Part shown: positions 27,210 to 51,907 of the stretch, piece by piece
How positions within the stretch are numbered: position 1 is the stretch's first letter
Layout of the letters: every line of letters begins with the position of its first letter
Origin: Cantharellus purpuraceus
Lineage: Eukaryota > Basidiomycota > Agaricomycetes > Cantharellales > Hydnaceae
Reading direction: 5' to 3'
DNA: 64,000 nucleotides
Assembly: GCA_025174535.1 (NCBI GenBank)
Contig: JALBUN010000048.1
Coordinates: 2,232,001-2,296,000 of the forward strand
Translations under genes and position numbers: made by a program
The notes under the pieces: generated by a model
What the model saw: only the letters and a program-made list of their open reading frames with translations
Told to the model about the DNA's origin: nothing
Databases searched by the model: none

Positions 27210-28685
27210 TGTCAAGATTGATTTTTGGCTGAAGGGGTAGACTCTGAGCCAATGAATGCTATGAAGATATAGCAAATATTATTTAGTAAGACTCCAAATA
27301 TAGAGGCCTACAGTCAGGGGAGAGATATCCAAGGTAACCTGGTTATATGCAGGATGGTACCTTCAAGGATGTGTTGGAGTGGCAGTATCCTCATGATTGG
27401 TGATAGTTACAATGAGTGGCCAATCAGAATATTAATTCACAAGTCATGAGTTGTAACTTGGATATAGCAAAGAGAGAAATACTTTAGTTGCTCAGCAAAT
27501 GAGGTGTTATGCACTAGGTCCAATGGGGGGTTGGAACCTGGGTCAGAGTTTGGGGTTGGAGTCAGAGTGGGTGTTGGGGTACATCATGGGTGTAAGTTGT
27601 GCCTTTGTTCACACTGTTACAGAACTCAACCAAGTATATTGGTTGGGCGATGTGTTGTACAGTGTGGTTTTTAGCTAAGTTCTCTCTACTATAAGTGGAC
27701 CCACACATGTACTGGGTCCACTGGCTTACATAATAACTATACATATGCACCCTATGGGTGCATATATCTACCAAGAGGACAACATTCCTGAAGGGAATGC
27801 TGCATATATCAATTATACTTATATACTATAGTAAGTAAGTACCTTGGGTACTTACACCCTTCCCTTTTTGAATGAGACATGATCTCATCCAGTACTTTTT
27901 AATCATACAGCTCCTTATGAAGCTGATCTGATGAGTTGGTATCCATATGATTGTCTTAATCATATGGCTCTGGAGGGGGACAGCTCTCAGTCATCCCTGA
28001 TGCTGTTGCAGTATCCTCATCCACTTGAATGGATGAGGAGGATGCAATTGCTACCACAGTGTCCCAATCAAGTTCATGATTAAGTTGATTGTGACCTAAA
28101 TGCTCAGTAAGAGAGCATTTAGCAGCTTTATGAGCTGCTTGGGAGACTCCCTGAGTCTCCTGCTTTCGCTTACCAACCCTGGCAGGCTGGTTAAAAGCTG
28201 TGCCAGAGGTGATGTGTTTAGCAAACTCCTCTAAAATAGCAGCATGATTGGGGGTGATGCCTCCCAATTGCCCAAACCAGAGCACAAGCTCTAATTCAGT
28301 ATGTTCTTTGGGGGAGCAATTCCCCCAATCATACGCTCCAGTGACTGAAGCACAAAAGGTGTCACCAAGAGTTGGTGAGTACTTTTGGCCACTGGTCAAT
28401 AATTCCCAGTGGCTGGGATTCTGGAACATAGTCCAGAGGTTCTTCTTGAATGCAGAAGAACCCTTCTTAGGAGTGGCCTTTTGCAGCCACATCCATATGT
28501 CCACATCAGACAAGTTCATGGTGCCATCTGACTCCTGTCAGATGGCCAGGGGGACCCCATTAGGGTTTACTTGCCACCCCTGTATGCGGTCAAGTGTGTC
28601 TACCGGTGTGGTTGGTAGAGTGACAATAAGACTCGTGTTATCAGCACAAGCTAGCAGAGTCATTCTTTTGATTACTCTGCACATT
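27210..28685 (-). mobile_element. hairpin-paved retroelement fragment (3' region with accessory ORF)
   Basis: This segment begins with TGTCAAGATTG at the point where the esterase copy is truncated and ends at the solo LTR at 28686. From about 27600 onward it is dense in short perfect inverted repeats. Examples are 28524-28545 (CCATCTGAC, 4-nt loop, GTCAGATGG) and 28308-28328 (TTGGGGGA...TCCCCCAA). A stretch near 27600-27690 is homologous, in inverse orientation, to 51362-51440, which ties the two fragments to one family. It holds one ORF on the minus strand. Confidence 0.6.
27956..28519 (-). CDS. unrecognised ORF of the hairpin-paved element, 187 aa
   Basis: This is an uninterrupted 187-codon frame beginning MNLSDVDIWMWLQKATPKKG. 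It has a basic middle segment (RVGKRKQET) and an acidic Ser/Thr-rich C-terminus. I do not recognise a domain. It is encoded within hairpin-rich DNA, so almost every 30-50 bp of the frame contains an inverted repeat. It is probably an accessory or structural protein of the element; a gag-like role is possible but not shown. Confidence 0.45.
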   Translation of the reverse strand: MNLSDVDIWMWLQKATPKKGSSAFKKNLWTMFQNPSHWELLTSGQKYSPTLGDTFCASVTGAYDWGNCSPKEHTELELVLWFGQLGGITPNHAAILEEFAKHITSGTAFNQPARVGKRKQETQGVSQAAHKAAKCSLTEHLGHNQLNHELDWDTVVAIASSSSIQVDEDTATASGMTESCPPPEPYD

Positions 28686-30114: not shown

Positions 30115-30335
30115 ATCACTATATGACAGGACAGAGGTGGGGTCCGCTCCAATGGGAGTTGGATACGCTGGAGTTGGAAGCTCTGGGTGCTGTATATGAC
30201 ACGGACTTGAACTCCTCAGGATCTTGGGACTCTTTGGAGAATCTCAATAGGTTGGATGATGAGAGGTGGTGGTCATGGGAGGAGATAGATTGGATGATCA
30301 GGGAACAGGAGTTGGACTCGGAGAATCCAGAGAAG
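30115..30335 (+). other. short ORF-bearing fragment between two LTRs
   Basis: A 72-codon frame (30123-30341) is rich in Trp, Asp and Glu (for example DDERWWSWEEIDWM) and runs into the start of the family B LTR. I do not recognise it. It may be the 3' flank of the inserted B element or a piece of another element. There is no promoter or splice evidence for a gene. Confidence 0.3.
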
Positions 30336-30968: not shown

Positions 30969-33900
30969 TAATACCTCCCTTTTTGAGTAGTAACCACCCC
31001 CGTAGAACGAAAGGATGGCTCACAAAATAAAATCGAAAAACACCTTCTCCTCATCCCTTAATCAAAAAATTCCCAAACTTTTCACAACTTTTTCTTATCA
31101 TAAAACTCCCCCTTCTTGCTCCAATAGATTGTAATATTCCTTGAATAAATTCTTGACAAGAAGGAGGGAACAGTGGATGGGGAATCAGAGGAGTCAGGTG
31201 TAGGAGAATTGGAGATAGAGGAGAAGTGATGTATCTAGAGAATGTGATGACTAGTGAATGACTGAATTTTCTTGGATAAAACTGGAGTGAATTAAAACAA
31301 TGTGGGGCCGGGTTTATGAGGATAGGTCTGGTGGAAATCAGAGATAATCTCCATTGCATGTCCTAATTCTGAAGCTGGTAGCCAGGAGGTTTCTTCATCT
31401 GTTCCTTTGTATCCTGCCCACTTGACAAGGTATTGCAGTTTACATTTTTGTCTCTTGTCACTTGGAGTCCAGGATCTCTGATATCTCATACTCCAGTTCT
31501 CCATCTATGATGACAGGAGGGACTGGAGTTGGTTCTCTACTGGAGAATGGATCTGGAGTTGAGGGTTCAAGCATGGAAATGTGGAAGACAGGGTGAATGG
31601 AGCGCATGCTTTCTTATAGATGGAGGGTAAAGGAGTTAGGGCCTGCTTGAGTGATGATTTTGAAAGGACCAAGGTATTTTCCCAATAGTTTCTTGGAAGG
31701 TCTCGTTGTATGGATATTGTCAGATTTGACAAAAACCTTGTCCCCAACCTTGAAGTCTAGGGCCAGAGATCAGTGATGGTCAGCAGAGGTGGAGTATTGG
31801 AGTTGGGCATCAGAGATGGTTTTTCAGAGATGCTGATGGAGTTCATTGAGGTCCACAGCAAAGTTTCAAGCTCTTGAGGAAGTGAGGTCTTGTTTGGGAT
31901 GTATGGAGATGTTTGGGTGATAACCCTTGTTGGCAAAGTATGGAGATAAGCCAGTAATGGCATTCAGAGCATTATTATATGCAAATTCTGCAAGTGGAAG
32001 TAAGTTGGACTAGTTGTCCTGTTGGTAGTTGCAGTAGACTTGGAGGTACTGTTCCAGAGTCTGGTTCATTCATTCAGTTTGTCCATCGGCTTCTAGGTGG
32101 TATCTAGAGGTGAAATGGAGTTTGATTTCCAAAGCTTTTCTGAGGGTTTGGAAAAAGGAGGACACGAACTCCATACCATGGTTGGAGGTAATGTGTGATG
32201 GAACTCCATGCTTGGAAAAGACATGGAGCACGGATAGTTTTGTAAGCATAGGAGCTGTGATGGTGTTGACTGTAGGAATAAAAATGGACTGCTTGGTGAG
32301 GTGATCCACAATAACTAAGATGGTGTCATAACTGGAGGATGCTGGGAGCTTCTCGACAAAGTCCATGGATATGGAGTTCCATGGACTCTCTGGAATGGGG
32401 AGTTGCTTGAGTAGTCCATAAGGATGATGTCTCTGTGACTTTGAGCACAAGACTTGATGTAGGACTTAACGGAACTATGGAGTTCAGGCCAGACATAGTC
32501 CTGCCTGACTAGTTCTATAGTTTGGTTCTGTCCAAAATGACTGGTGATTGGATGGTCATGTTTGTTCTGGAGTATGTGGAGTTGGAGGTTGTTCATGTTG
32601 GGAACATAGATGTGGTTGTCAAGATGGAGTAAGCCTTCCAGGTCAATGGACCAGTGATTGGTCGGTTTAATGAGATGTCCAGAGATGGCTGGATCTGATT
32701 GGAGTGTGGATCAGATATCGGAGTGGAGTGTATCAATGTCCATAGTGATGGCTGCTTGGAGGACTGGAGAATAGAACATTGTTGCTTGGAGGGAAGCAGT
32801 TAACTGTTTGTTAGTGAACACAGGCCTAAGATTATGTGGATTTACTGCTGCATAATCATTTCCTCCCTCTTTAGGATAGACATCCCATCGTCTAGTTAAC
32901 AAGTCCGGTTTTGTGCTGAGTTTGCCAGGACAGAAACAGATTATCAGATTAAACTGGGACAGGAATTCAGACCAGCGGGCTTGCCTCCTAGTAAGGAGTT
33001 TGGTAGTTGAAAAGTATTTGAGGTTCTTGTGGTCTGTGATGACATTGACCAGAGTTGGAGATCCTTTGAGGTAATGTCGCCAGGACTTGAAAGCTTCAAA
33101 GATTGTGAGTAGTTCTTTATCATGTACATTGTAGTTGAGTTCTGCCAGGGTGAAAGTCTGAGAATGGAAAGCTATTGGATGAACCTTGTTGTCTGCTGGA
33201 GAGATGGTTGATAAAATGGCTGCCAGTGCATAGTCGGAGGCATCAGTTTCTACAATGATCGGAGATCCTGGGTTCCATTGTGATAAGACCGGAGCTGTAG
33301 TGAAAGCTCTCTTTAACATTTCGAAAGATGTCTGACAGGAGTCTGAGAACTCCCATGGAGTTCCTTTACAAGTTAAACAAGTTAATGGAACTGTGAGGTC
33401 AGAGTAGTTGAATATGAAACACCTATAGAAATCGGCAAATCCTAAGAAGGATTGCATGTCCTTGACTTTGCAGGGTTCTGGCCAATCTTGTATCACCTGG
33501 ACTTTGCTGGAGTCCATAGTAAGTCCATTTGGAGACAATATATATCCAAGGTACTTGACTGTGTTCTTGTGGAAAGAACATTTGTCGGCACAAGCATACA
33601 GCTTGTGTTTCCAGAGTCAGAGAAGGACTTCATGGACATGGTTGCTGTGTTCTTCAGAGTTGTCAGAGTATATCAGGATATCATCCAAGTACATGAGGAT
33701 GCATATATCCAGGAGGTTGGAGAAGATGTCATTCATAAGACACTGGAATGCTGCCGGAGCATTGGTAAGTCCAAAGGGCATAACACACCACTCAAATGAG
33801 CCATAGTGAGTGTGAAACACAGTTTTCCATTCATCACCTTCATGAATCTGGACAAGATGGTAAGCATGCTGGAGATCGATTTTGGTGAAGAATTGAGCCT

Positions 33901-36659
33901 TCCTAGGACTGTCTAGAAGATCGGAGATGTGAGGAAGTGGGTAACAGTCTTTTTTGGTGATTTTATTAAGGCCCCTGAAATCAACACAGAGTCAGAGGGA
34001 GCTGTCTGTTTTCCAAATGAAAAGGACTGGAGCGCTGCCTGGAGATTGGGTCAGCCAGATGAAATCATAAGATAGATGCTCATTGATGAATTCTTGAAGA
34101 GCCTGGAGTTTGCTCTGGGACAAGGAGTAGATCAGACCAAAAGGAGGAGATGTTTCCTCTTCCATTTTGATTCTCAAATTGTATGACTTGTGAGCGGGTA
34201 GGGTATTGGCACAGGTTTTGCTAAAAATGTCTGTGAATTTGTGATATTCAGTCAGGATGTTCCTCATGTTGACTGGAGGGTCCTTGGAGTTCCTTGGAAC
34301 TGTGGAGGAGATGAACAACTTAAATGTTTGTGCATTGGCTCAGAAGGAGTCATGGGTGAAGGTTGCTGTGTTGATGAAAGCAATTTTCAGAGCAACAAGT
34401 GGAGATGGAGTTATGGAGTTGAGTGGAGCTGATGCTACCAACTTGGATGGTGCCAAGAATTTAGTCTCTATCGGAGTTTGGAACGAGATACTGCCCAATA
34501 CCCAGTCAATCAACAGATTGTAGCAGGTGAGCCAGTTGTGTCCCAGAACTGCCAAGCAACTAACATCCAATGGAGTTACATAAAAAGTAATGGAGTGGGT
34601 TTCTCCCATAGGAAAATGGAGTGGCAAGTTGATTGTGGATTTAATAATGGAGTTAGAGGATCCATCAAAGAGCTGTAATGGGATCAGAGTGATGTCTTCA
34701 GTCCAGAGATGATGTCCAGAGACAAATGAAGAATTGAGGAAATAATGAGTGGAACTGAAGTCCACTAGGGTTGGGATCGGAGTTGAGGGGATGAGATCAG
34801 AGGTGAGTTGGAGTGTCAAGGAGTTAGGGTCTGAAAGAGGATGCGTTGAGATGTAGCTCTGTGAAGGCACTAGTGAGTTCAATGCAACCCTTGTCCAGTG
34901 CCAGAGCCAGAGGGTTGCTGATTATTTTTTGGCTCTGTAGCCTTGGCTTTGGAGCTCTTGTCAGACTTGTTGTCTGTTGTAGCAGTATGAGCCTTTGCAG
35001 CTGCTGAGGTGGTCTTCAGACAATCCTTGGCAATGTAACCTACTCGTCCACAAGAGAGAGGTTCTGTTCAATATGATGCTGTCGTTCCTGTGGAGTAAGT
35101 TTACCATCTTTACCTAGCTTGGTAGAGAGGTCAGGGGTCTGCTTCAGAGTTCCAGAGGTAGAGGCTGTAGGGGGGTTGGATCTGGAGTTACCAGATTTAC
35201 CAGAGTTGGACTGCTTCTTGTTGTTGCTGCCCTGGGTGTTGGAGGAAGAAGTGGACTTGCCCTTGTCATGGGACTTGTCCTGATTCTTGCCTGAGGAGGT
35301 CTCTTGAGCTACCTCAGAGCATTGTTCCCAATACCAAGCATTGATGGATTGTACTAAAGTCCTGAGTTCAGATAGGGTGACTGGTTTGCCTACTCTGGCA
35401 ACTTTGTCCTTTATTTGGGATGGAAGGCCATTGTATAATTGGCATCAGAGTGCAGCATTTCCCCATTGGACACGAGCAGCTAGTCAATTGAACTCAACTA
35501 GATACTTAGTGATCTGCTGGTTATCAGCATTCAGAGATTCTCGAGTTCAGCCTTGGCTTCGGCCTCCAGATCATGAGGTCCAAAATTGGTCTCCAATTTG
35601 GACATGATGTTACATCCTGTAACACCGAGTTCCGATCTCCGGATTCCATCTCCACCTCTGTCAACTCCACCTCTGTCAACTCCGGACCCCACCATTGTTC
35701 TCCTCATTAGTAGTCTTCTTCTTATGGGTTACAACAACCGTTATACTTTCTAATTGTTTAGTATTAGTTCGGACATGAGTCTGAACTCCGAACTCCTTTC
35801 CATGTTGTATTCCATATTAGTCTTATTGTCTTATCGCTTTTAGTTTTACCATTCAATTCTCTACATACTTATACGGGCTACTTCTTGTATGTTACAGTAG
35901 TTCATATATCAACTAAGATTCCCCATCAGCTTCTTGGTTACTAGCTTCTTGACAAGTATCTTCTTGACAAGTCAAACTCTGGGTCTTTGATCCAACTCCG
36001 AACTCTGAACTCCAAAATATTGGACCAACGATTTGAGGGGGCGCAACACATAAGTTGAAGCCAAGTCCACTCGATCTGACTCAATAGTTATTTGTCCCCA
36101 TCTGTCTCCGGTTGAACTGGAACAGTCAATCCCATCCCCTTCCTCACTAGTATCTGAACACCAGCTACTCCTTTAAACTCCAAGTTTTCAGCACTTAACA
36201 CATAAACTCAGAGTCGTTGTCTAGCCAGGAGGCTTTGGAATTGGAGGTCAGGGTGGGTTTGAACCAATCAAGTGCAGTTCCTTTTAAATAAGATAGAGCA
36301 TAAGTAACTTTAGCACTACCATTGGAGAACGCATCAGGACAGTCACGGAAGTTGAGTGTGCATTGCATAAGAAAGGGTTGGAGTTTGTGGGAATCGGATC
36401 CATCGAAGGTATCTGGTTCTCTTCTTCAGAGATGATATGGAATTAGCCAACATACTGAGGGCTTCTGCAAGGTTAGGGATTGGGATGGATGAGGGATTGG
36501 CTAGAGGAGTGCCTTCCTGGAGTTCAGCCTTAAGCTCCTGATTGGATACTGGAGCTTCTCCAGGGACTTCCTCAATGGTGGCGGGTGGTACTCCCACTCA
36601 GATGGAGGTTTGGGTGCTTTGGAGGGGCATGACAATCAAGGGTAGTAGTTTGTATATTC
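30969..36659 (-). pseudogene. degenerate Ty3/gypsy chromovirus, copy B
   Basis: Read on the minus strand from 36659 down, this is a gag-pol copy broken by stops, frameshifts and an LTR insertion. The parts are: gag N-terminus (36597-36343); gag continuation and nucleic-acid-binding region with one knuckle-like CxxxGYIAKDC remnant (about 35600-34900); protease-linker region (34882-34340, with VLGHNWLT); RT (34318-33617, with [14 protein letters not shown] and YLDDILIYS); RNase H (33538-32711, with VETDASDYALAAIL); integrase (32596-32070, with SMDFVEKLP); and a chromodomain remnant (31504-31292, with KLQYLVKWAGYKG). The 5' end is cut by a family D LTR at 36660. It cannot be functional. Its closest relative in the window is the plus-strand copy at 52.4-58.7 kb. 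Confidence 0.85.
35605..36199 (-). mobile_element. solo LTR, family D, inserted in gag of copy B
   Basis: On the minus strand it runs from TGTTAAG to GATGTAACA (595 bp). It interrupts the gag frame between '...DSEFM' and 'SKLETNFGPH', and removing it restores the reading. Flanks on that strand read TTATG and TCATG, a 4-of-5 match consistent with a 5-bp target-site duplication. Other D copies are at 36660, 50019 and 50537. Confidence 0.8.
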
Positions 36660-37813
36660 TGTTAAGCTCTGGGACAACTTGGGGTTCAATGGGAAAAGGC
36701 TGGAGTTTGGGAGGGAGATGGGACTTTACTGTTCCAGTTCAACTGGAGACAGGGTGGGAGCAATACTATTGAGTCAGATTGAGTGGACTTGGCTTCAACT
36801 TGTGTGTTGCACCCCCTCGGATCATCAGTCCAATATTTTGGAGTTTGGAGTTTGGAGTTGGATCAGGGATCCAGAGTTCAACTTGTCGGGGAGATACTTG
36901 TCAAGAAACTAGCAACCAAGAAGTTAATGGGCAAATCTTAGTCGATATATGAACTACTGTAATAGACAGAGAGTAGCCTGTATAAGTATGTGGAGAATTG
37001 AATGCTGAAACTAAAACAATAAGACAATAAGATGGATATGGAGTACTGTTATGACTATATTCATTAACACCCAGATCCCCATCTGATCCACTCAGATCCC
37101 CATGCATATGAAATCTATACTCCATTTGGGAACCATCACATCTCCATTTATCTGTCTGATGGTCACCACCAAATCTCACCCATCCGTCTCCGGTTCTGAT
37201 TGATGCATCAGCATCACCATAGGAACCCAGCCATCCGTCCCCGTCGGACTTGGACATACTCATGTAAGGCTGTCGGCCTCAGAGACCCATCACCAGAGTA
37301 ATTATTATTAGATTTCAAATATGTATTCAAGTTGCCCGACTGGGGACTTCATTCCCCAGTTTGAATATCAAATCATGCCTAGTTCCTAAGTCTGATCCTA
37401 ACTCTCTAAGTTGTACTCCATCTCTGAAATCTCAGACACTGGTATTAGTGAGGGCGCAGCACATAAGCTGAAGCCAAGTCCATTCCGACCCCCACAATGT
37501 ACCTGACTCCCTCTCCAACTCTGACCAAACCTCCAACCCAACCTCCAACCCAACCTCTGACCCCCAATTGGACCTAGTGTGTAACAAGTACAACACGGAA
37601 AGGAGTTTGGAGTTTGGACCCAAGTCCAAACTGAAACTAAACAATATAAAAGAAGGAGGTTTGTTGTAACCCATAAGAAGAAACTATTTATAAGGAGAAC
37701 AATAATGGAGTTTGGGGTTGACAGAGGTGGAGTTGATGGAGGTGGAGTTGATGGGGATGGAGATGAAGGAGATGGAGGTCAGGAGTTTGGACTTGGTGTT
37801 ACAGGATGTAACA
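36660..37813 (+). mobile_element. family D LTR interrupted by a family F solo LTR
   Basis: It starts TGTTAAGCTCTGGG and ends GGATGTAACA. Excluding the nested insert (37047-37591 with one target-site copy), its two parts sum to about 610 bp, the same as the D copy at 50019. The left flank is copy B gag. The right flank begins GAGCT, matching the left flank of the D copy at 50019-51361. Confidence 0.75.
37047..37586 (+). mobile_element. solo LTR, family F, nested in the D LTR
   Basis: This is a 540-bp insert starting TGTTATGACTATATTC and ending GTGTGTAACA. It is flanked by a perfect 5-bp target-site duplication AGTAC (37042-37046 and 37587-37591). A second F copy lies at about 51908-52420, upstream of a gag gene. 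Confidence 0.85.
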
Positions 37814-38341
37814 GAGCTCCTTTGCCATAGATTGAGGGGTTTCCTCTTCAATCTGGATCAGTAATCCTTGCCTCACAGGGATTACTGGGTCTCTGATTCC
37901 CTCCATTGGGGGAATTTCATTTGCTCCGTCCAACCAATCATTCGGTTGGATCCTCTCACCCCAGGGAGATCCAGACTCTCTGGATTTGGATTCCTGTTGA
38001 GAATCTGATCTTCAGCAACGTGACTTGCATTGCTCAGAGTTCTCTTGGAGCAATTTTAACATTGTTCCTAGCTCTGCAATTTGCTGCCCCATAGTAGTGG
38101 CAGCATGCCCTGCTTTGGCAGCCATCTTAGCTGCCTGAGCACTAGCTCTGCTAATGCTCTTCATCTCATGTTGATTATGCATGAATTGTTCAGTCAATCT
38201 TGTGATTGACCTGTGGGTTTCACACCACTCTGTGCTGCACAATTCCCTAGTAGAAGTATTGTGCTCATATATTGAGCACATTGTTGGTTCACTTATGGAA
38301 TAGATCCTATAAGCCTGCATGCAATGGTCCTAGCAAACAGT
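37814..38341 (-). pseudogene. gag N-terminal part of the hairpin-paved element
   Basis: On the minus strand, right after the H LTR, a frame begins MQAYRIYSISEPTMCS. It runs through an Ala-rich helical stretch (SRASAQAAKMAAKAGH) to a TGA, then continues in frame to the D LTR at 37813. The reading resumes at 50018 and below (DQEIELWKQREVEASHKH), so one gag gene is split across 12 kb. The DNA is hairpin-rich (for example TCCAACC...GGTTGGA near 37940). Confidence 0.65.
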
Positions 38342-38875
38342 TGTTCAGCATGCCAAAGAACAGTCAGGCCAAGGGGTAGCACTGAGTAATGGGTAAGTGT
38401 AATAGTGCTCTGTGATTGGAGGATGATGGGGAGCAAAAAGGATGGTTGAGATGGTAGATCGCACTCTGGGACTTTCTGGCAAGATGGTTGATTGTGCTCT
38501 GTGACTGGAGGACAATGGGGAGCCCAGTTGGGAGGTATGCAAAGGCTGGTTTCAGGAGATGCAACCTCTCAGTGAGGGAGGGAAATCTGATCATTGAACC
38601 AAGGTGTTTTACCTCAGTGTAGAGCTGATGGATTGTGATGTAGAGCATAGAGCGTAGGCTTAGAGCATGGACTTTGACTTTAGAGTGTTGGCTGAAAACT
38701 TGTTGATTGATATGATGCAAGAAATGCTGATCAAGCCAGCTGATGAAGCATGTGAAGTTGAACTACTAATGGGGAAATCATGGAGAAATGAAGCAACAGA
38801 TAGGGGTAATCTTTGTAAGAATAGGAGGTGATGAGTCATAAAAGAACCAAAAATAGAACAAGGATGAGTAAGTCA
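38342..38875 (-). mobile_element. family H LTR (LTR of the hairpin-paved element)
   Basis: Sense on the minus strand, it starts TGACTTACTCATCC at 38875 and ends about CATGCTGAACA at 38342. Its start coincides with the end of the accessory-ORF arm, and its end with the gag leader. The other copy is split between 59350-59482 and 47243-47781. This copy has lost the segment that carries TATAAATAGG in the other one, so it may lack a working promoter. Confidence 0.65.
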
Positions 38876-39550
38876 TCTATGAATGAATTAAAAGATGAAA
38901 CAGGGGTGAGTCATATAAAAGAACAATAGAAACATCCACCAATACCATCCTCCCTACAGCTCTGAAGGTAAGTCAACCCTGAGTCACATGAAGACTTCAG
39001 TCAGCGTCCACAACAGATACTCCTTATTGTCTTAGTGATCTGTCTCCATATGGTATCCCATTCCAAGGGTATTTGGTCCCTTTGCCTGACATGATGTAAC
39101 CTGAGTTGGATTGAAGTGGGAGGATAGGTTGGTGATGGTGACTGAAACTCTACCTCACGTTCAACTCTTCTATCTGTGTTATGATATAGAGGTGAAATGC
39201 CAAGGAATGTATATGGTTCAACAGAATTGTGAAAGAATATGGGATTGCCAATGGTATAAGAGAGACAAGGTGGGGATCTTGGACATTGAAAGAGTTTTGG
39301 AAGTATTTTGACATGTGGAGGTGGCTTAACATGCCTGTGGAGCTCAGCATATTTTTGATAGTCCTCTGTGTCCAGAGACCAGTGTGACATATTATTAGAA
39401 GAGATGTTGGAGAGAGGAATAGAATTGGAAGCCATGTGAATGATGATGAAAGGATCGGTGTGAATAGAAGGCTGATAATGATCAATGGTGATGAAACATG
39501 AGTGACGATTGATGGCTAGAAATAGAGACTGAGGTGGAGAGGGAGTTGTG
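38876..39550 (-). repeat. left arm of a 0.67-kb inverted repeat flanking the pol region
   Basis: The sequence is the near-perfect reverse complement of about 44750-45423. It contains on the minus strand the same accessory ORF (39435-39001) that the right arm carries on the plus strand; the two 144-residue translations are identical. In the element's sense it is the 3' end just upstream of the H LTR. Confidence 0.85.
39001..39435 (-). CDS. retroelement 3' accessory ORF, 144 aa (inverted duplicate)
   Basis: This is an intact frame identical in protein to 44869-45300. It begins MASNSIPLSNISSNNMSHW and has conserved blocks WSLDTED, PPPHV, IGNPIFF and PYTFLG, shared with the 145-aa ORF at 46391-46828 of a different LTR family. 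Function unknown; there is no recognised domain and no membrane segment. It sits between the pol region and the 3' LTR, where envelope-like or accessory genes of LTR elements occur, but it does not resemble an envelope protein. Confidence 0.5.
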   Translation of the reverse strand: MASNSIPLSNISSNNMSHWSLDTEDYQKYAELHRHVKPPPHVKILPKLFQCPRSPPCLSYTIGNPIFFHNSVEPYTFLGISPLYHNTDRRVEREVEFQSPSPTYPPTSIQLRLHHVRQRDQIPLEWDTIWRQITKTIRSICCGR

Positions 39551-42500
39551 GTGCTATTCCCTCAGTTGAGGGATCAATGGAAAGAAAGGTACACTGACCT
39601 ATTCAGCAGCATACCCTTAGAACTTCCCCCATTTAGGGAAGTTAACCACAAGATTAATCTCATGGATCCTGACAAGGAAATACATTATCACTTGCCTAAG
39701 TGTCCAGAGCACTACCGAGCAGAACTTTCAGAGAAAGTTCTGTGATACACCACTGCTAAATGGTGGGTATCGGCTACAGCCTGGCAGGCTGTACCAATGC
39801 TATCCATTCCCAAAAAAAATGGGAAGCTCTGCACCGTGTTCGACTTGTGCAAACAGAATGATAATACAGTGAAGGATGTAATGCCCTTCCCCCATCAGGA
39901 CAACATTAGACATGATGTTGCCCACTGTACATATCAATCTAAACTCAATATGTCTGAGGCGTACAAACAGATACATGCCAGACCAATGGATATACCCAAG
40001 ATGGTGTTTGCAACTGTCTTGGGGACATTCGTCAGTCAAGTCATGCAGCAAGGGGACTGCAATGCCCCCATGACATTTCAGCGGCTCATGACTGCCATCT
40101 TCTGAGAATATATCAGAAGATTCATCTATGTATATCTGGATGACATATTTGTGTACTCTTGTACTATACAAGAGCATGAACACCACCTAGAGGTATTCAC
40201 TGAGCTCAGGAAAGCACATATGTTCCTGAGCAAGGATAAGATCAATCTATACTCAACAAGTATGGATTGCCTTGGTCACCTAATTGATGACCAAGGTGTG
40301 CATGCAGACACTGATAAAATGCAGCAAATACAAGAGTGGAGACAACCTAGGTCGTACCACAAAGTCCAATGTTTTCTTGGACTAGTGCAGTATCTGGCAC
40401 ACTATATGCCAGACATAACTGCATACACAACCCCTTTATCAGGTTGTGCTCATAATAATTGTCCATTCTTATGGACACCACTGCTAGAGAAATGCTTCAA
40501 AAGCATCAAGCTCCTAGCATGTAGGGCTCCAATATTGAAGCCCATCAATGTCAATAACCCTGATACTATTTGGGTTATTACTGATGGCTCCAAGACTGGA
40601 GTTGGAGCCATCTATGGACAAGGAAAAGATTGGGAGACCTGTCAGCCTGCCAGATTCCTATCCAAGAAATCTAGTGCTGCACAACAGCACTATAAGACCC
40701 ATGAGCATGAGACTATAGCTGTGCTTGAAGCCCTAATGAGATGGGAAGATAAGCTACTAGGATGAAAGTTTGTCCTAGTAACCGACCACAAGGGTCTCAA
40801 ATACTTTGAGACCCAAAAGAACCTGTCTCCTAGACAGATTAGATGGTGGGAGTTCTTATCCCATTTCAACTTTACTACCCTGTATATAGATGGGGTAGAG
40901 AATAAAGTAGCAGATTGTCTATCATGCTACTATGCTGATGACTCCCCAACAGAGAGTCATCCCAACCACATCTACATAAATGCAGATGAATGTCTCAACC
41001 CTGAAGGAGAACTGCTCCCCATGGAACAGTTTGTTGAGATCAGGACAGCAGCAGTCACCCAAAGGTGACTGCTCAAGAAAAAAGAAAACAGAGCGCTAGA
41101 AGCTGAAGCACTCAATATTCAAACAGAATCATTGAATGATGATTCTAATTCCTTTAAAGAAATAGAGGACGTTGGAGTGATGTCATCAGATGATGATGGA
41201 ACACCATTGCGATCCCACATCAAGCATGGGATCAACCTTGTGCAGATTGTACAAGGTACATATAGAAAGGATACTGTCCTTTCTAAGGTGCTGGAAGCAC
41301 CTAAAGAACACACATGATTTGGTGTGCATGATGGTCTAATATGGACCAAAAATATATACAAACACAATGTCATCTGTATACCCCACTCAGCATTCCTGAA
41401 GGGAGGAGGCTGGTCAAGATAATAATCGACCATGCACACCAAGTAGTTGGCCAATTTGGTCAACTAAAAACCACGAATTACATTTGATGGTCATACTGGT
41501 GGCCAAGCATGGCCACCAATGTTGAATCATTCTGCACTTCATCCATGAAGTGCCAAATGAATAAAGACAGTACAAAGAAACCCACAGGGCTTCTTCATAG
41601 CTTGCCAGTACTGGAACAGCCCTGGCAATCAATAGGTATGGACTTTATGGGTCCATTACCCAAAATTGAATGACTGTGACTATCTGTTATTTGAATAATG
41701 TAAATAATTGCTTTGCTGGAGTGTAGTGACGAGCAGAAGTCGAATAGAAAGTGGAGAAGTGGTGGGAACTGGATGTATGCGTAGTCGAATTGAAGATATA
41801 CTTGAGTAGTATCTTCCTACGAAGTTTGATGGGATTTGGTGTGATCTTCGTCTAGATATTGACAATTTGAGCAGGGATCAGGAGCAGATGACTCGAACGA
41901 GAGTAAATGCTTAATAAAAACGTAGCCAGTTATTGTATGGCTTCGTAATTCGAGATTCGAGTTGGATATGCAATATTCTAATAGAATATGCAAAAGCTAA
42001 TAGAAATACGCGTTCGTTCTGGAGATATTCCAGATACGAATAGATTCAGACACACAGATAGAAACAGGTGAGAGGAAATTCTCTAGTCTATTCAAGTGCA
42101 TTACAGATGTGATTTATATATGATACTAAGTCCTATGAATGAGTGAAGTCATTCGTAAATGTCCTGAGTTAATGATGGGATGGATGATGAGATGATGATG
42201 GGGGGAAGTGTCCATGATGATGAAATGATGAAAATAAAAGCGAAAATAATGTCCAGGAAGTTCTGGAACTCACAGGGGCTTCTCCTGTTCCCTATTCCAT
42301 TCCTGTAACCGTCCTCCTTTACCCCCTTTGTCCCTCAAAACCTCCTGAGCCTCCTATATGCTCCTGTTCCTCCCCTGTCCCCTGTAATCCCCCTCTCCTC
42401 TCCCTTCTCCCCAGAAGTCCGGCAGCTAGACGTCCGGCAGCTGGAACAACACTATCTACTGGTAGTCATAGATTGCTTCATGTCACAGGTACATATAATG

Positions 42501-43453
42501 CCTATGAACATGCGTGTAACAGTGAAAGGAGTAGCATGGCTATTCCTTAAAGAAGTTGTACACCTTCACGGTGTACCAGACTCAATCATGTCTGATCAAG
42601 ATCCAAAATTCACATCTATCTTTTGGCGTGAACTACAGCAGATAATGAGAGTGAAACTTTTCATGTCCACAGTGTTCCATCTGCAAATGGATGGAGTAAC
42701 AGAATGAGTGAATCGTTCCACTGGCCAAATACTTTGTACTGTTGTACAAAGTGATCAGAAAGATTGGGCACACAAGTGTCCAATGGTGGAGTTCACGCTA
42801 AACTCCAACATAAGCTCAACAATGGGGTTTACTCCATTTGAGCTTAACCACGGGTATATGCCTAAAATAGGCATGCCCATTAACAATGACACAAGTTCAA
42901 GGGTGTCAAATGATTTGCACAGCAGGCTCAAATGAACCTGCTAGCAGTGCACAATGTGATTATAGAAAGTCGTGTCATTCAGACATTTCATGCCAATAAG
43001 AAATGTCAGGAAGGTTCAACCTTCCAGAGAGGTGACAAAGTCTACCTCTCAACAAAAAACTTGACTCTACCTAAGGGTAGAACCAGCAAACTAGTGCCCA
43101 GGTATATTGAGTCCTATAAAATAATCAAAGCCCATAATAAAGCTTCAACGGTGACACTGGAACTGCCACCAGAAATGACTAGTAGGCCCATTACACCTAC
43201 ATTCCATGTCAGCCTCATTCAACCATATGTGCTGAATGATGAGGTGAGATTCCTGAAACAGGAAGCAATGTCATTGTATGACTTTGGGAATGATGATGAG
43301 CAGGAGTGGCTTGTCGATGAAATCATCACTCATCGATGGATAAGCAATAAAGAACTTGAATTTCAAGTTCTATGGATGTTGGGAGACGTCACCTGGGAAC
43401 CATACACATCATGTAAGGACCTAGAAGCTCTAGACAATTATTTAGAGCTTTGA
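39548..43453 (+). pseudogene. pol region of the hairpin-paved gypsy element
   Basis: Plus-strand frames in order: an RT lead-in (39548-39745, HYHLPKCPEHYRAELSEKVL-like); RT (39797-40180, with a CTVFDLCKQN block and YVYLDDIFVYS); RNase H (about 40560-41068, ITDGSKTGVGAIYG and LVTDHKGLKYFETQ); an integrase zinc-binding and catalytic core (41400-41680 and 42457-42935, with SIGMDFMGPLPK, YLLVVIDCF and IMSDQDPKF); and a C-terminal chromodomain-like end (42932-43453, EWLVDEIITHRWISNKELEF). In-frame TGA codons at 40103, 40763 and 42705 replace arginines. A 767-bp solo LTR splits the integrase. The striking trait is the density of perfect short inverted repeats through the coding sequence, such as 40270-40296, 40583-40612 and 40792-40814. 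The element is dead, but its frames are still readable. Confidence 0.8.
41685..42451. mobile_element. 767-bp solo LTR inserted in integrase
   Basis: It starts TGTTATTTGAATAATG and ends GGAACAACA. It is flanked by a perfect 5-bp target-site duplication CTATC (41680-41684 and 42452-42456). Removal joins the integrase codons for DYLLVVID. Near its right end is a direct repeat GTCCGGCAGCT (two copies four bases apart). An internal stretch (about 41905-42060) resembles the family B LTR. Unlike the surrounding element it is not hairpin-rich. Confidence 0.88.
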
Positions 43454-43888
43454 AGGGTGACTTGAGTGTGAGAACTACCTCATAGATGGTAGTTCTCAGA
43501 GAGACAGAGCCCCAAAGATCTAATGGGGCTCAAGGGGGAGAAGTGGAGCCACCAAGAATAAAGGTAGCTCCTAGCAGGATGCGATAAAGAGCTACCATCA
43601 ATGACAGTAGCTCAACAAGGGGAGAAGGAACTACCTCAATTAAATGGTAGTTTCTAGATAAGGATAGAGCTACCATTACAACAGACAGCTTGATGGTAGA
43701 AAAAAAACTGCTCCCATAGGGAGCAGTTCACTGTCATGCTACTCATAGTAGCATGAAAGGGCTAAGCAATAATTAATTGCATTACACCCATGTGACATAG
43801 TTACTGGAAAATTCTCAATAAAGAATTTTCAAGCTCAGCCATAAAAGGCTAGTGGTGTTTCTTTGAACCACCACAACCCCCCATCAAA
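43454..43888 (+). other. non-coding spacer of the hairpin-paved element
   Basis: No open frame is supported here. The segment between the chromodomain stop and the next ORF is still packed with inverted repeats. Examples are AGAACTACC...GGTAGTTCT (43473-43498), GCTCCCATAGGGAGC (about 43709), TGCTACTCATAGTAGCA (about 43738) and GAAAATTC...GAATTTTC (about 43807). The hairpins are therefore not confined to coding sequence. Confidence 0.6.
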
Positions 43889-44521
43889 ATGTCATCTCTC
43901 AGAAGGGAGATGATGGATGCTCAGGATGAGCATCCAATGGAAGTTGAACAAACTTCCACAGTGGCAGCACCAGCAACAAGTGCTGCAGATATGATCAGGG
44001 GTCATCAAGATGAGATGACCTGGAAAATTGGCAGATGGCACAGTGGCACTGCCATCCATCACCCTCACAGGTGCAACAAGTGCGATGCATATGTGTTGCA
44101 CTTAATTGAGGCCCAAAATGGAGGCCAACTATATCTTTCCACCGCTTCGGTGGAAAGAGCATTAAGAGTTGCATGGCTGCAACTTATACACAACATTGAA
44201 GATGATGTTGTGACACATTATTGTGAAGACTATGATAAGATGTACAAGGATAACTTGGACCTGTTTGTGCAGGTCCAAGAACTCAAAGGACTTCTTGACA
44301 ATGAGAAGTCCAAAGTAACTCGTCTCAGAGATGAGTTAAAAACACTGAAGGAGGCTGCTGATAACACCTCCTACATTCACGACCAAGCTCATGATGGTGC
44401 AATTGGCCCCAGTAGCATCGCTATCATGTGCTATGGCAGGCAAATCATTGCCTGCCATTATGCCATCACAGCCTGTGGCCCCATCATCACAGGAAATGAT
44501 CAATCTCACCAAATAGGATGA
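43889..44521 (+). CDS. accessory ORF of the hairpin-paved element, 210 aa, CxxC and coiled coil
   Basis: This is an uninterrupted frame beginning MSSLRREMMDAQDEHPMEVE. It has a possible metal-binding HRCNKCDAYVLH motif at about residues 53-64. A predicted coiled coil lies at about residues 118-160 (VQELKGLLDNEKSKVTRLRD). The composition suggests a small oligomerising protein; there is no known domain. It lies downstream of pol and upstream of the second accessory ORF. Its DNA contains hairpins such as 44136-44156 (TTTCCACC...GGTGGAAA) and 44254-44279 (10-bp arms). It stays open while pol is broken, so it may be younger, or open by chance. Confidence 0.5.
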   Translation: MSSLRREMMDAQDEHPMEVEQTSTVAAPATSAADMIRGHQDEMTWKIGRWHSGTAIHHPHRCNKCDAYVLHLIEAQNGGQLYLSTASVERALRVAWLQLIHNIEDDVVTHYCEDYDKMYKDNLDLFVQVQELKGLLDNEKSKVTRLRDELKTLKEAADNTSYIHDQAHDGAIGPSSIAIMCYGRQIIACHYAITACGPIITGNDQSHQIG

Positions 44522-44737
44522 TCGCCCAAGCATGCCTTGGGTCAACCCTCAAGGGTTTGAGGGTCAAGATTGGGATGACACCAACGCAATCTGGGAGGGA
44601 TATGACCATGATCATGGCCTCTTCCTGGCTAGCATCCCCAAGGGTGCTAAGCAACCGGTGACGAGCCAGGACGCATCGAGGACATATATCAAACCACTTT
44701 GACAGTCCAGCTCTGCCAGTGTCTTTTTGTATCAAGC

Positions 44738-44746
44738 TTTTAAATA
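44738..44746 (+). promoter_or_regulatory. TATA-like box upstream of the 144-aa accessory ORF
   Basis: TTTTAAATAG lies about 125 bp before the ATG at 44869, inside the element and far from its LTR. A comparable TATA box precedes the homologous ORF at 46391. This suggests separate transcription of the 3' ORF; inference from position only. Confidence 0.35.
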
Positions 44747-44749
44747 GTG

Positions 44750-45423
44750 CCATAACTCCCTCCCCACCTCAGTCTCTATTTCTAGCCATCAATCGTCACT
44801 CATGTTTCATCACCATTGATCATTATCAGCCTTCTATTCACACCGATCCTTTCATCATCATTCACATGGCTTCCAATTCTATTCCTCTCTCCAACATCTC
44901 TTCTAATAATATGTCACACTGGTCTCTGGACACAGAGGACTATCAAAAATATGCTGAGCTCCACAGGCATGTTAAGCCACCTCCACATGTCAAAATACTT
45001 CCAAAACTCTTTCAATGTCCAAGATCCCCACCTTGTCTCTCTTATACCATTGGCAATCCCATATTCTTTCACAATTCTGTTGAACCATATACATTCCTTG
45101 GCATTTCACCTCTATATCATAACACAGATAGAAGAGTTGAACGTGAGGTAGAGTTTCAGTCACCATCACCAACCTATCCTCCCACTTCAATCCAACTCAG
45201 GTTACATCATGTCAGGCAAAGGGACCAAATACCCTTGGAATGGGATACCATATGGAGACAGATCACTAAGACAATAAGGAGTATCTGTTGTGGACGCTGA
45301 CTGAAGTCTTCATGTGACTCAGGGTTGACTTACCTTCAGAGCTGTAGGGAGGATGGTATTGGTGGATGTTTCTATTGTTCTTTTATATGACTCACCCCTG
45401 TTTCATCTTTTAATTCATTCATA
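44750..45423 (+). repeat. right arm of the 0.67-kb inverted repeat
   Basis: It is the reverse-complement partner of 38876-39550, with the accessory ORF in sense. The match ends at 45423, which is exactly where the H LTR should begin. Instead the sequence changes to the 3' end of a B-type element, marking a recombination junction. Confidence 0.85.
44869..45300 (+). CDS. retroelement 3' accessory ORF, 144 aa
   Basis: This is the sense copy of the ORF also found at 39435-39001. It is homologous to the ORF at 46391-46828: shared blocks are WS(L/V)D, PPP(H/Q)V, (I)xxPxF, PYTFxG and a Trp-containing basic C-terminus. It ends a few hundred bases before the expected 3' LTR. Function unknown. Its DNA is not notably hairpin-rich, unlike the pol region beside it. 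Confidence 0.55.
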   Translation, partial: ASNSIPLSNISSNNMSHWSLDTEDYQKYAELHRHVKPPPHVKILPKLFQCPRSPPCLSYTIGNPIFFHNSVEPYTFLGISPLYHNTDRRVEREVEFQSPSPTYPPTSIQLRLHHVRQRDQIPLEWDTIWRQITKTIRSICCGR

Positions 45424-45613
45424 GTGTCAAGAATTCATTCAAGTAATATTACAATCTATTGGAGCAAGAAGGTGGAGTTTTATGATAAGGAAAAGTTGTG
45501 AAAAGTTTGGGAATTTTTTGATTAAGGGATGAGGAGGAGGTGATTTTCGATTTTATTTTGTGAGCCATCCTTTCGTTCTACAGGGTGGCTACTACTCAAA
45601 AAGGGAGGTATTA
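45424..45613 (+). mobile_element. 3' non-coding end of a second B-type element with polypurine tract
   Basis: It is the reverse complement of about 31165-30969, downstream of the chromodomain in copy B. It ends with the purine tract AAAAAGGGAGGTA before the LTR. Nothing of the B pol precedes it here, so only the 3' tail survives at this junction. Confidence 0.7.
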
Positions 45614-47242: not shown

Positions 47243-47860
47243 TTCATCAGCTGGCTTGATCAGCATTTCTTGCATCATATTGCATCATTTGCTCCTCATA
47301 TTGTGTTGTTGTGCCCTGGGGATTTGTATATGAAAGGGTGCTAGTTTTCACCTTTTGGATCAATCAACAAGTTTTCAGCCAACGCTCTAAAGTCACAGTC
47401 CACGCTCTAAGTCTATGCTCTATGCTCTATATCACAATCCATCAGCTCTACACTGAGGTAAAGCACCTTGGTTCAATGATCAGATTTCCCTCCCCCACTG
47501 AGAGGTTGCATCTCCTGAAACCAGCCTTTGCATACCTCTCAACTGGGCCCCCCATCATCCTCCAGTCACAGAGCATGATCAACCATCTTGCCAGAAAGTC
47601 CCAGAGCACAATCTACCATTTTGACCATCCTTTTCACTCTCCATCATCCTCCAGTCCCAGAGCACTATAAATAGGCTCAACAGCACCCTCTTCATTCACC
47701 CTCACCAGACACAGAGCACTATTACACTTACCCATACTCAGTGCTACCCCTCAGCCTGACTGTTCTTTGGTGTGCTGAACAACTGCGTTACACACCATCT
47801 GTTTGCTAGGACTGTTGTGCACACGCTTATAGGATCTATTCAATAAGCGAACAGACAACA
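47243..47860 (+). mobile_element. 3' part of the H LTR plus leader
   Basis: It continues the H LTR (match to 38742-38342 reversed) from the G insertion site to about 47781, including TATAAATAGG near 47665. The first about 80 bases of the leader follow (match to the gag start region near 38320). At about 47860 it switches abruptly to minus-strand protease sequence, a rearrangement junction. Confidence 0.65.
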
Positions 47861-50018
47861 GGGTATGAAGAGCATCAGTATTATGCTCTTCATTGGTGGG
47901 GACTTCTTCAGTCCCCATCATGATTCGACCTGGGCCATTAAAGTCCAGGCATATTCCTAGCTTTTGTAGGAATGGGGTGCCAAGTATTACATTGTAATAC
48001 TCAACGTTGGTGACATCAAAGTATTCTTCAGTGTCCTGACTACCAAACTTTATGGTAGTGTGAGTACCATAATTTATGGTACTCCTGCTCCCAATGCATG
48101 CTAATTGCAGTGCAATGGGTTGCTCTAGTGCAAAGGTTTTCATACCTGTCACCCATGTGAATTCAGGGGATATCATTATCCCCTCGCTTCCACTGTCTAA
48201 TGGACAGTGGGCAAGTGTTCCACCAATCTCCCAATACCCAGAGATTGTTTTATTGTCTTTGCATGGTCTATCTGGTCATGCTGTTGACTTCTGTTGGCTC
48301 CTATGATTATACATAGGTTTGGCTGATCTGTCGATGCTGACAGCAGCTATATGCAGCTGTTGTGATTCCCTGCTTGTCAGGAATCTTGTTGCACTACAGA
48401 AACACACTGCATAGGTGTGTTTTGGTGGAATTCAATCATTGGGTCAAATTCGTATCACATTAGAGCAATACATTGGTGTAGCCTCCTCTTTGGGGGCATC
48501 ATCTTGGTCATCCCATTCGTATGGGGTGATATCCTCATTCCATTCATCAGCTACTTCTATAGCTGGCATTTTTCCCTCTAGATGGTCCTTGGGATCATCC
48601 ATTGCTTCTTCATGTTCTCCCTCTATCAGGGAGAATCCATCTACATTGTCCTCCACTATGTGTGAGGACACATCCTTTCAGACTGCAGCTGACCTTATGT
48701 TGCCCTTTAGTTTGGGGCAGCTGGGTCACATGTGACCTGTCTGGCTGCATTTGTAGCACAACATTACTGGTAATGTTGTTCGATCAATCACCACTCACAT
48801 GTGCTGGTGGCTTCGATTGATAATTACCCTTCAAAAGGTAATTGTTGGAATTAGACCCAAAGCTTCCATTATGGTGTTCCAACCTTGACACACTCGCTTG
48901 TCATGAGTGTGTGTTGGGAGCTGTATACACACGTCCATGGGGCATGGGTCAACTCCCCATATTCATCATACCAGTAGTTCTATTGACTACTGGTCTATGG
49001 GTTGAGGAGGACATGTTAGTCACATTCTCTGGGTGTCACATACCATGGTGGTATTGCGTTGCTTCCTCTATCATTTGAGCAGTTTTGTACAACTGCTTGA
49101 TACTGCTGAACTCAGCATTGAAGCCCTTCTTGAGGACTTTTTGTCTCAGAGGTTCATGCATTGTGGTTATGAACCTCTTCCTGTATGTGTATGCATCCGG
49201 TGGCATTATCATGCAGCCCACATACTTATCTAGGTCATTCATTAATTTTTGAACAGTCCTTTGACCCTGTATTACAGAGTCAAATTTATTTGACGCATCA
49301 TCATGCATCAGGGTATGTAGGAATCTATGCTGCAATCCTTGGATTGCAGTTTCCAGGGTCCAGTCTTGGACTGCCCTGTCATAGTGTTCTACATTCCTGT
49401 AGAACCATTCCTGGGCCTCACCTTTAAGGTGAGTGTCTAAGTACAATAGCTGAAGGTTTGTACTTGATGGCCCTAGGAGATTATTCATCTTCAGCCATCG
49501 TAGCATACCTGCTACAAATATCTTGAACTCTTTGAGATCTGCACCTCCTGCATATTGCTCAGGAGGTGATACTTTAATGCCCACCTTGGTGAGTACAGAC
49601 TTCTCTGGGTCTGTATCTCTATTATCAACTATAGCTATGTGCACCATGTGAGTAATGCCATCAATAGGATCAGTTGTGTCCAATTGATCTGGTATGCCTT
49701 GACCTTCTAGGGTCAATGGCACTGATTGTTCCCTGTTATGGGGAACATCTTCTTGAGGTACCCATTGGGTATCTCATTGCTCATGGCAGGTGTCTCCTGA
49801 AAGGCCCACCGCTTGTATGCGCTGATAACTGTTCAGTGCATGTCACAACTGTTGGTTTAAATTGACAGCCACATTAAGCTCTTGCTGGGGCCACTGCTCT
49901 CTAAACAGCTGGCCAAGCTCCTGCTCTGCATGTTTAGCCTTCCATTCAAGGGCTAACCTGTGTTTATGAGAAGCCTCAACTTCTCGTTGTTTCCATAGCT
50001 CGATCTCTTGATCGAGCT
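47861..50018 (-). pseudogene. gag C-terminal part and protease of the hairpin-paved element
   Basis: On the minus strand from 50018 down: a gag helical start (DQEIELWKQREVEASHKH); the gag core (49722-49036, with QEWFYRNVEHYDRAVQDW); a zinc knuckle CYKCSQTGHMxPSC near 48760-48715 in which x is a TGA; an acidic spacer (48671-48444); and the protease (about 48310-47861) with LDSGSEG as the active site. Hairpins fill the stretch, including one whose arm contains the Asp-Ser-Gly codons (48190-48210). It continues the gag begun at 38320-37814. Confidence 0.75.
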
Positions 50019-50536
50019 TGTTAAGCTCTGGGACAACTCAGGGTTCAATGGGAAAAGGCCAGAGTTTGGCTGCTAGTAAAGAGGGAGATGGGACTTTACT
50101 GTTCCAGTTCAATTGGAGACAGGGTGGGAGCAATACTATTGAGTCAGATTGAGTGGACTTGGCTTCAACTTGTGTGTTGCACCCCCTCAGATTGTTGGTC
50201 CAATATTTTGGAGTTTGGAGTTTAGAGTTGGATCAGGGATCCAGAGTTCAACTTGTCAAGAAGGTACTTGTCAAGAAGCTAGCAACTAAGAAGTTAATGG
50301 GCAAATCTTAGTCAATATACGAACTACTGTAATAGACAGAGAGTAGCCTGTATAAGTATGTGGAGAATTGAATGCTGAAACTAAAACAATAAGACAATAA
50401 GATGGATATGGAGTACAACATGGAAAGGAGTTTGGAGTTTGGACCCAAGTCCAAACTGCAACTAAACAATATAAAAGAAGGAGGTTTGTTGTAATCCATA
50501 AGAAGAAACTACTTATAAGGAGAACAATAATGGAGT

Positions 50537-51254: not shown

Positions 51255-51361
51255 GGAGTTCAGGGTTGATGGAGGTGGAGTTGACAGAGGTGGAGTTGAT
51301 GGGGATGGAGATGAAGGAGATGGAGGTCAGGAGTTTGGACTTGGTGTTACAGGATGTAACA

Positions 51362-51907
51362 CTACCACACTGTACAACACATTGCCCAACCAATATACTT
51401 CATTGAGTTCTGTGCAATGGTGTGAACTAAGACACACATTTACACTTTTTTGAACTTCCAAAGGAAGAATCAATTCTTCCTCATTATTGAAGTTTTCTAG
51501 TCAATACTAGAAAACCAACTGTTGCTGGTGTACAGACGTATACCAACCCCCCCAGTCACTCGAAGTGAGCAACTAGTAAACTAACTTAGTTAGTCTACAA
51601 AGATAGAAGAAAGAAAGGAGTCATCATAATGATGGCTCACAGTAGAGTGAGTCATACTGGCAGCACCCAGGACATCATAAAAAATGATGAATGGCAGCAC
51701 ATAGCCAGCAGCAGAAGCTCCCATGAAGGGGAGCTAGACCCTAGAGAAGTTGCAGGGACTTCTCATAAGGAAGACTCTAGAAGAGAGTCACCGCGATTGA
51801 GACTGCACAGATGATCAGAAAATAGATCATCTGTCAAACAAGAACCCTTCATCGAGTGGTTCTTTGATTAGAGAAGAAAGGAGGAGACAGTCATCAACTG
51901 TCTCCAA
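51362..51907 (+). mobile_element. hairpin-paved element fragment, non-coding
   Basis: It is homologous to the reverse complement of about 27690-27600 at its start. It is dense in inverted repeats, such as GGAAGAATTGATTCTTCC-like (about 51462), GTTTTCTAG...CTAGAAAAC (about 51489) and 51883-51905 (GGAGACAGT, 5-nt loop, ACTGTCTCC). No frame is supported. The right end meets the F LTR. Confidence 0.65.

Follow-up and report, generated by a model that had tools for sequence, protein, structure and literature searches.

Short, mostly perfect hairpins pave a Ty3/gypsy retrotransposon family of Cantharellus purpuraceus

The stretch of DNA analyzed here (the window; 64,000 nucleotides of contig JALBUN010000048.1 of the basidiomycete Cantharellus purpuraceus) carries a broken-up long terminal repeat (LTR) retrotransposon whose coding and non-coding sequence is filled with short, mostly perfect inverted repeats. 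The element belongs to a Ty3/gypsy family: the expected domains were found (PF19259, PF00078, PF17919, PF17917, PF00665 and PF24626), and assembled loci gave their order as LTR, leader, a segment before gag (PRE), gag with a Ty3-type capsid, reverse transcriptase (RT), RNase H, integrase with a Tf2-1-like SH3 domain, a non-coding spacer, a first accessory frame (acc1), about 400 bp, a second accessory frame (acc2), polypurine tract and LTR. Summing block lengths gives an estimated length of about 9.4 kb, the whole element being present in no single locus. Scores for the rve piece (PF00665, E 7e-6) and the first RVT_1 piece fell below Pfam's cut-off, while PF24626 was called at E 3e-12; Pfam called no protease domain in the gag piece. 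For acc2 (27959–28537, minus strand), which in L044 and other copy loci follows the acc1 block at a distance of about 400 bp and whose block together with the LTR holds 24 stems, there was no Pfam match at E ≤ 0.01. For acc1 there was no Pfam match above cut-off and no match at E ≤ 0.001 among 217 candidates from protein collections; by eye it has a CxxC...H-like stretch and a coiled-looking tail.

In the window, gag lies on the minus strand (47861–50018) and pol on the plus strand (39559–44656), and the paved pieces elsewhere belong to the same family as the pol segment. The pol segment is flanked by two nearly identical inverted copies of another repeat, and recombination between them, by inverting what lies between, would explain the opposite orientations. 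The original prediction had placed the paved element at 39548..44690; homology to other copies instead ends at 44656, and the stretch at about 41686–42450 is an insertion that is missing in 12 of 19 listed loci, where the sequence passes directly from about 41685 to 42451.

All copies that we compared come from this single genome (40.15 Mb, 50 contigs). A DNA search with 40000–40900, in which 40 of 134 candidates were scored, matched all 40, the 39 besides the window's own at 90–93% identity. At the protein level, with 150 of 971 candidates scored, more than 100 matches had 71–94% identity, many partial and some representing fragments of one copy; all further matches were near 30%. Among 11 whole LTR matches the ends are a TGTAAGT-type start and mostly an ...ACA end; the polypurine tract AAAAAGGGGAGG precedes five of seven 3′ LTRs and a variant of it the other two, and none of the fetched loci contains both LTRs of one element. 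By eye there is no tRNA-type TGG primer site after the 5′ LTR, the sequence there being close to CTTTTTTGAACTTCCAAAGG in L022, L061, L062 and L064, and priming of the element may be unusual. Protein relatives reach 52–81% identity among the best 120 of 265 listed, the named one being a Rhizoctonia solani protein; at the DNA level no relative was confirmed in viral_contigs or genome_contigs.

Table 1. Pieces of the hairpin-paved element and its neighbours in the window. Arms are those of perfect inverted repeats; stems are those common to copies.
Feature	Positions	Strand	Paving	Evidence and remarks
LTR (about 265–275 bp), begins TGTAAGT	27594..27860	-	paved	11 whole LTR matches in fetched loci
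acc2 (second accessory frame)	27860..28684	-	paved	longest open piece 27959–28537, 193 aa
PRE (segment before gag)	37815..38280	-	paved	precedes gag in L059–L064; 13 stems, 66% covered
One of two inverted flanking repeat copies	38877..39558	+	unpaved	99.4% identical inverted copy at 44743–45424
RT, RNase H, start of integrase zone	39559..41685	+	paved	PF00078, PF17919, PF17917; 50 stems
Nested insertion of another repeat	41686..42450	.	unpaved	no arms of at least 8 bp
Integrase core and Tf2-1-like SH3	42451..43450	+	paved	PF00665, PF24626; frame broken in window copy
Non-coding spacer	43451..43852	+	paved	perfect arms of 10–11 bp at 43469, 43706, 43734
acc1 (first accessory frame)	43853..44518	+	paved	DNA present in other copies
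gag (Ty3_capsid) and following sequence	47861..50018	-	paved	PF19259, E 5e-8 in 49039–49773; 51 stems
5′ LTR end and leader, displaced in window	51362..51906	+	paved	LTR-leader-PRE-gag order in L061, L062, L064; 13 stems

We scored inverted repeats as perfect arms separated by a loop of 3–12 nucleotides. The original prediction had counted by eye, between 40.08 and 40.83 kb, about 13 such repeats, at least seven with arms of 8 bp or more, and the count was correct: with arms of at least 7 bp there are 13, nine of which have arms of at least 8 bp (starting at 40097, 40156, 40204, 40270, 40553, 40583, 40672, 40755 and 40792, with arms of 9, 8, 9, 9, 8, 11, 8, 8 and 10 bp, respectively). The 10-bp arms described at 44254–44279 are likewise present. 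We then compared each stretch with 60 dinucleotide shuffles (15 for 54500–63500). Arms of at least 8 bp numbered 18 in 39559–41667 (shuffle mean 0.32, maximum 2) and 17 in 42450–44742 (0.42, maximum 2), which upholds the claimed continuation of the paving into the accessory frame and spacer. The tracts named at 27.5–28.7, 37.8–38.3, 47.9–50.0 and 51.4–51.9 kb also exceeded their shuffles, with 11 in 27560–28684 (0.15, maximum 1), 2 in 37815–38400 (0.10, maximum 1), 18 in 47760–50040 (0.32, maximum 2) and 4 in 51362–51906 (0.07, maximum 1). Arms of at least 7 bp numbered 26 in 39559–41667 and 31 in 42450–44742, compared with 1.3–1.6 in shuffles. Codon-preserving shuffles were compared as well: the RT frame has 18, 13 and 6 arms of at least 7, 8 and 9 bp, respectively (codon-preserving shuffle means 1.6, 0.4 and 0.1), and 16 open pieces (6,099 bases, loops of 3–14) have 83 arms of at least 7 bp, or about 13.6 hairpins per kb, where shuffles average 8.2 (maximum 15).

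Host genes and two other gypsy stretches of the window lack the paving, as had been claimed. Arms of at least 8 bp numbered 2 in the gypsy sequence at 30300–35600 (0.83 shuffled), 3 in that at 54500–63500 (1.47), and none in the host genes at 2392–9188 (0.82) and 19517–25000 (0.65). The nested insert (41668–42449) also has none (0.15), yet has two arms of 7 bp (0.37), and 38402–39558 has no arms of at least 7 bp. Elsewhere in the genome, a control copia stretch has 1 arm of at least 8 bp in 2.0 kb and a control gypsy stretch 2 in 1.8 kb, both counted without shuffles. Across 57 loci, element-matching bases carry 7.42 arms of at least 8 bp per kb (1,248 in 168 kb) and the other bases, among which some unaligned parts of the element remain, 1.29 per kb (101 in 79 kb), a roughly six-fold difference within the same loci. 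The paving was to be considered refuted if codon-preserving shuffles or the other gypsy elements matched or exceeded its density; both comparisons came out the other way, and the paving is a real property of the retroelement.

To compare copies we aligned 49 other copy loci, out of many candidates existing in the genome, and the window, using one row per locus and dropping rows more than 97% identical (rows kept, window included: PRE 12 of 13, GAG 27 of 29, RT 41 of 44, IN3 26 of 29, P28 17 of 18, P51 10 of 12). Stem-loops were defined by at least seven paired columns, a loop of 3–14 and at most one mismatch. Figures for per-block density, wobble helices, loops, gaps, GC content, CpG decay, mismatch position and lengths come from a first alignment, in which some loci overlap one copy, and figures for codon register and codon shuffles come from the window sequence. 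Common to the copies are 200 stem-loops over 8,627 bases, which cover 56% of the sequence with 1,750 pairs and occur in the LTR, leader, gag, pol, spacer and both accessory frames. Their density is alike in all six blocks (22–28 per kb), and the arms of non-coding stems average 9.3, those of coding stems 9.0 (p 0.26).

The stems are short, local and mostly Watson–Crick. The longest perfect run is 11 bp (12 of the 200 stems), with 24 stems at 10 bp and none at 12; because the 11-bp runs appear to be about as many as chance extension of 10-bp stems would yield, stems seem to have formed up to about 10 bp. The commonest loops have 3 or 4 nucleotides (46 and 36 of 200 stems, respectively). Inverted 7-mers are enriched 40–49-fold at spacers of 3–11, 20-fold at 12–14, 7-fold at 15–17 and 3-fold at 18–20, and beyond 20 only 1.1–1.9-fold out to 400. 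Close direct repeats (spacers up to 20) reach 0–3.1-fold in the element; control gypsies reach 2.5–6.5-fold. Serial copying between neighbouring hairpins was considered and rejected: a few runs do reuse a motif (43.46–43.70 and 47.98–48.08 kb), and direct repeats show no comparable excess.

In RT and RNase H the hairpins lie over protein sequence that has kept its conservation. There, the frequency of the element's own residue among 120 relatives (metagenome and genome proteins) was 0.69 in 5′ arms, 0.68 in 3′ arms, 0.60 in mixed codons and 0.62 outside, such that residues in arms are as typical of relatives as the remainder. The register that pairs codon position 2 with 3 and 1 with 1, which is the least constraining for protein according to PMC6649704, was used by 36 of 83 hairpins, compared with about 26% in codon shuffles, and the 3-with-3 register by 24 of 83 (29%, compared with 38%); among 129 coding stems of the alignment-based set the three registers numbered 47, 37 (3-with-3) and 45. 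Because residues are typical and the cheapest register is over-represented, the hairpins must have been fitted to existing proteins. Conservation of 5′ and 3′ arms showed no asymmetry that would reveal a copying direction, and relatives gave no clear signal of protein-level covariation between arms (0.800 of pairs achievable compared with 0.791 with arms swapped, 14 stems).

The strongest variation among copies is CpG decay after insertion: 344 CpG columns read TG 3,284 times, CA 3,136, CG 1,302 and TA 66, symmetrically between strands. Because the stems are common to copies and, by the criterion given below, no copy has a hairpin of its own, the hairpins are older than the burst that produced the sampled copies. 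Two older copies (83–84% identical across the RT region) have most stem pairs unchanged, 123 of 155 in L041 (9 of them gapped) and 139 of 162 in L042, and so give no deeper view. Shared variants per site number 0.0205 in stems, 0.0437 in loops and 0.0255 elsewhere, single-copy variants being about equal (0.17–0.19). The paired form is the rarer one in 20 of 57 non-CpG variants that at least three copies share at stem sites, which leaves their direction open. These data neither prove nor exclude maintenance of stems on the time scale of the burst.

Because the pattern is local, strand-symmetric, sequence-agnostic, Watson–Crick and concentrated in the element, its best explanation is template switching by cDNA that folds back on itself. 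The original prediction had offered two causes, a structured genomic RNA, which our data do not support, and template switching, which fits this pattern better but was never caught in action among the copies. We therefore favour, with about even confidence, fold-back (quasi-palindrome) copying that acts locally while cDNA is made, with selection on the proteins as a filter. Local inverted copying at the DNA level would reshape the nucleotide sequence of the family, most likely through template switching by nascent cDNA folding back during reverse transcription: where a short stretch a few bases off happened to be complementary, it would prime copying of one arm from the other, mismatches would be lost, and many cycles would leave stems of up to about 10 bp nearly wherever protein selection tolerates them. 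With slightly less confidence than we give the process itself, we suggest that habitual copying of this kind in the element's own replication cycle drove the ~200 Watson–Crick hairpins of near one helical turn, and that mutation rather than fitness largely set the synonymous sequence.

Selection offers a different account, in which many short hairpins serve a function as nucleic acid, in single-stranded cDNA or double-stranded DNA, by protecting, compacting or marking the element, with an optimum near one helical turn. We consider this unlikely, albeit a serious contender. It would accommodate the absence of perfect runs above 11 bp, the frequency of 9–10-bp runs in non-coding sequence (23 of 56 stems, with 12 of 56 at 7 bp), the prevalence of short loops paired with longer arms and the lower rate of shared variants in stems than in loops; it would also accommodate the preponderance of A·C over G·T mismatches described below, as if the minus strand were judged, although the similar ratio beside the stems could yield the same. 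Set against it, arm length does not compensate for GC content (rho −0.08, p 0.38, 130 perfect stems), the gaps between stems are as in random placement (mean 18.4, standard deviation 19.4), and shared stem variants are never compensated. Moreover, coding sequence, leader and LTR are filled alike, such that selection would have to act at each of about 200 sites.

Selection for a structured genomic RNA, as in RNA viruses, for packaging or for evasion of RNA interference or nucleases, appears improbable. The suggested comparison of folding energies with shuffles did place the element far below them, but on both strands: over 20 pieces, sense z scores ran from −3.4 to −10.8 (mean −6.9) and antisense from −4.6 to −8.7 (mean −6.4). 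Selection on sense RNA should tolerate G·U pairs and raise them above A·C, and the opposite was observed. Fixed mismatches in the 1,750 stem pairs comprise 8 G·T, 25 A·C and 34 others, and the window's own one-mismatch stems 8, 10 and 6, respectively; row by row, in rows that include overlapping loci, 341 helices have G·T, 680 have A·C and 514 are entirely Watson–Crick. The excess of A·C is significant against a 1:1 expectation (25:8, p 0.005), but the ratio adjacent to stems is 37:16, so we do not lean on the excess itself. We also selected eight random sequences in silico for low RNA energy; their energy per base came to resemble the element's, with 0–4 perfect hairpins per kb. Pairs within 40 nucleotides made up 29–67% in those sequences, compared with 82% in the element and 58% in pieces of host genes. 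Neither GNRA nor UNCG loops are enriched (2 and 0 of 35). We accordingly rejected selection for sense-RNA structure on the mismatch counts and the strand symmetry of folding. A host process acting on integrated DNA (repair or cruciform conversion) or an assembly artefact, for which nothing speaks beyond general possibility, can be dismissed as very improbable, since copies from many different contigs have these stems in common, the density is missing from non-element bases of their loci, the nested insertion lacks paving and later decay is ordinary CpG loss.

Several observations weigh against fold-back copying as the cause. One fixed internal mismatch persists in 67 of 200 stems (133 have none), with no bias of ordinary mismatches toward the loop (9 compared with 9, 3 equal). 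The 11-bp ceiling holds even in non-coding parts and has no explanation unless a short copying tract is assumed. A crude simulation of fold-back copying on random sequence (four untuned runs) produced 3.5–9.5 hairpins per kb, short of the density in the open pieces, with arms of up to 14. The association of shorter loops with longer arms (rho −0.33, p 0.0001) would also result from selection for stability. No hairpin was specific to one copy (arm at least 8, at least three pairs better than the median of other rows); none of the 57 shared stem variants was compensated, all being one-sided changes; and shared variants were not significantly rarer in stems than in everything else (odds 0.74, p 0.07; p 0.53 in the first alignment with a slightly different cut). 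Finally, an edge of the paving at the LTR ends is visible in few flanks only. Beyond the LTR there are no arms of at least 7 bp in 690 bases in the window, 300 in L042, 125 in L063, 272 in L062 and 274 in L064. Unlike these outer flanks, those outside the 5′ LTR of L061 and L022 have 3 and 2 hairpins in 300 bases, these two copies possibly being nested in another copy; the L048 flank has 1 in 40 bases, and at most 26 flank bases were read in L044, L049, L054 and L055. Within the LTR itself, 9 of the 11 whole matches carry 4–7 hairpins (arms of at least 7), L064 carries 3, L063 (70% identity) 2 and the window's own LTR 5.

The result lists and abstract openings returned by PMC full-text searches contained no LTR element with hairpin paving. 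The nearest published parallel that we found is the coding palindromes of mitochondrial genes in Nematomorpha (hairworms), for which PMC6649704 reports 110 repeats of at least 15 bp in four genomes (mean 43 bp, up to 142) and suggests repeat conversion, possibly via template switching. The hairworm genes and the element share many perfect inverted repeats in coding sequence, both arms of which encode conserved residues, and a tendency to avoid the register in which third codon positions pair with each other. The element differs in that its perfect runs, at most 11 bp, stay below the 15-bp arms of the hairworm repeats, in that 67 of its 200 stems carry one fixed mismatch where the hairworm repeats show no excess of imperfect ones, and in that about 200 stems occur in one retroelement family with non-coding sequence equally paved. 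In yeast, according to PMC8604942, template switching homogenizes the arms of short non-identical inverted repeats and makes multi-base changes in coding DNA; those are DNA polymerase events in 39 genes across strains, whereas the element is saturated along its whole length and yielded no individual event.

With Ty3/gypsy elements at large, the element shares the gag capsid, RT, RNase H, integrase, Tf2-1-like SH3 domain, LTRs and polypurine tract; what sets it apart is the paving, an acc1 for which no relatives were found, an acc2 without a Pfam match and the lack, by eye, of a TGG primer site. RNA viruses with genome-scale ordered RNA structure have folding energies far below shuffled sequence across the whole genome; in the element, unlike in those viruses, both strands are similar, sense wobble is absent and pairing is mostly local.

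If the pattern is mutational, it shows that replication can fill several kilobases of a coding genome with hairpins and leave RT and RNase H conserved, and the element would preserve a dense natural history of template switching. If it is adaptive, it would be a form of nucleic-acid armour that the papers found do not describe in any LTR element. In both cases the usual interpretation of synonymous sites, codon statistics and folding energies fails for elements of this kind, and their relatives in sequenced mushrooms would allow a direct test between mutation and selection.

The remainder of the window contains other features. Two tracts, 35608–37813 and 50019–51361, have direct and inverted repeats in common, together with AGTTTGGAC...GTCCAAACT and TGTTACA...TGTAACA palindromes and tandemly repeated TGGAGTTTGGGGTTGA; this repeat family differs from the paved element. 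On the plus strand, 2392–9188 holds a Tel1/ATM-like gene with a TAN domain (PF11640), whose closest relatives are metagenome proteins, an Auricularia protein being the named one among those seen. On the minus strand, adjacent frames of 19520–23159 encode WD40 repeats (PF00400) and the NPHP3_N domain (PF24883), which we take to resemble a fungal NLR-like gene.

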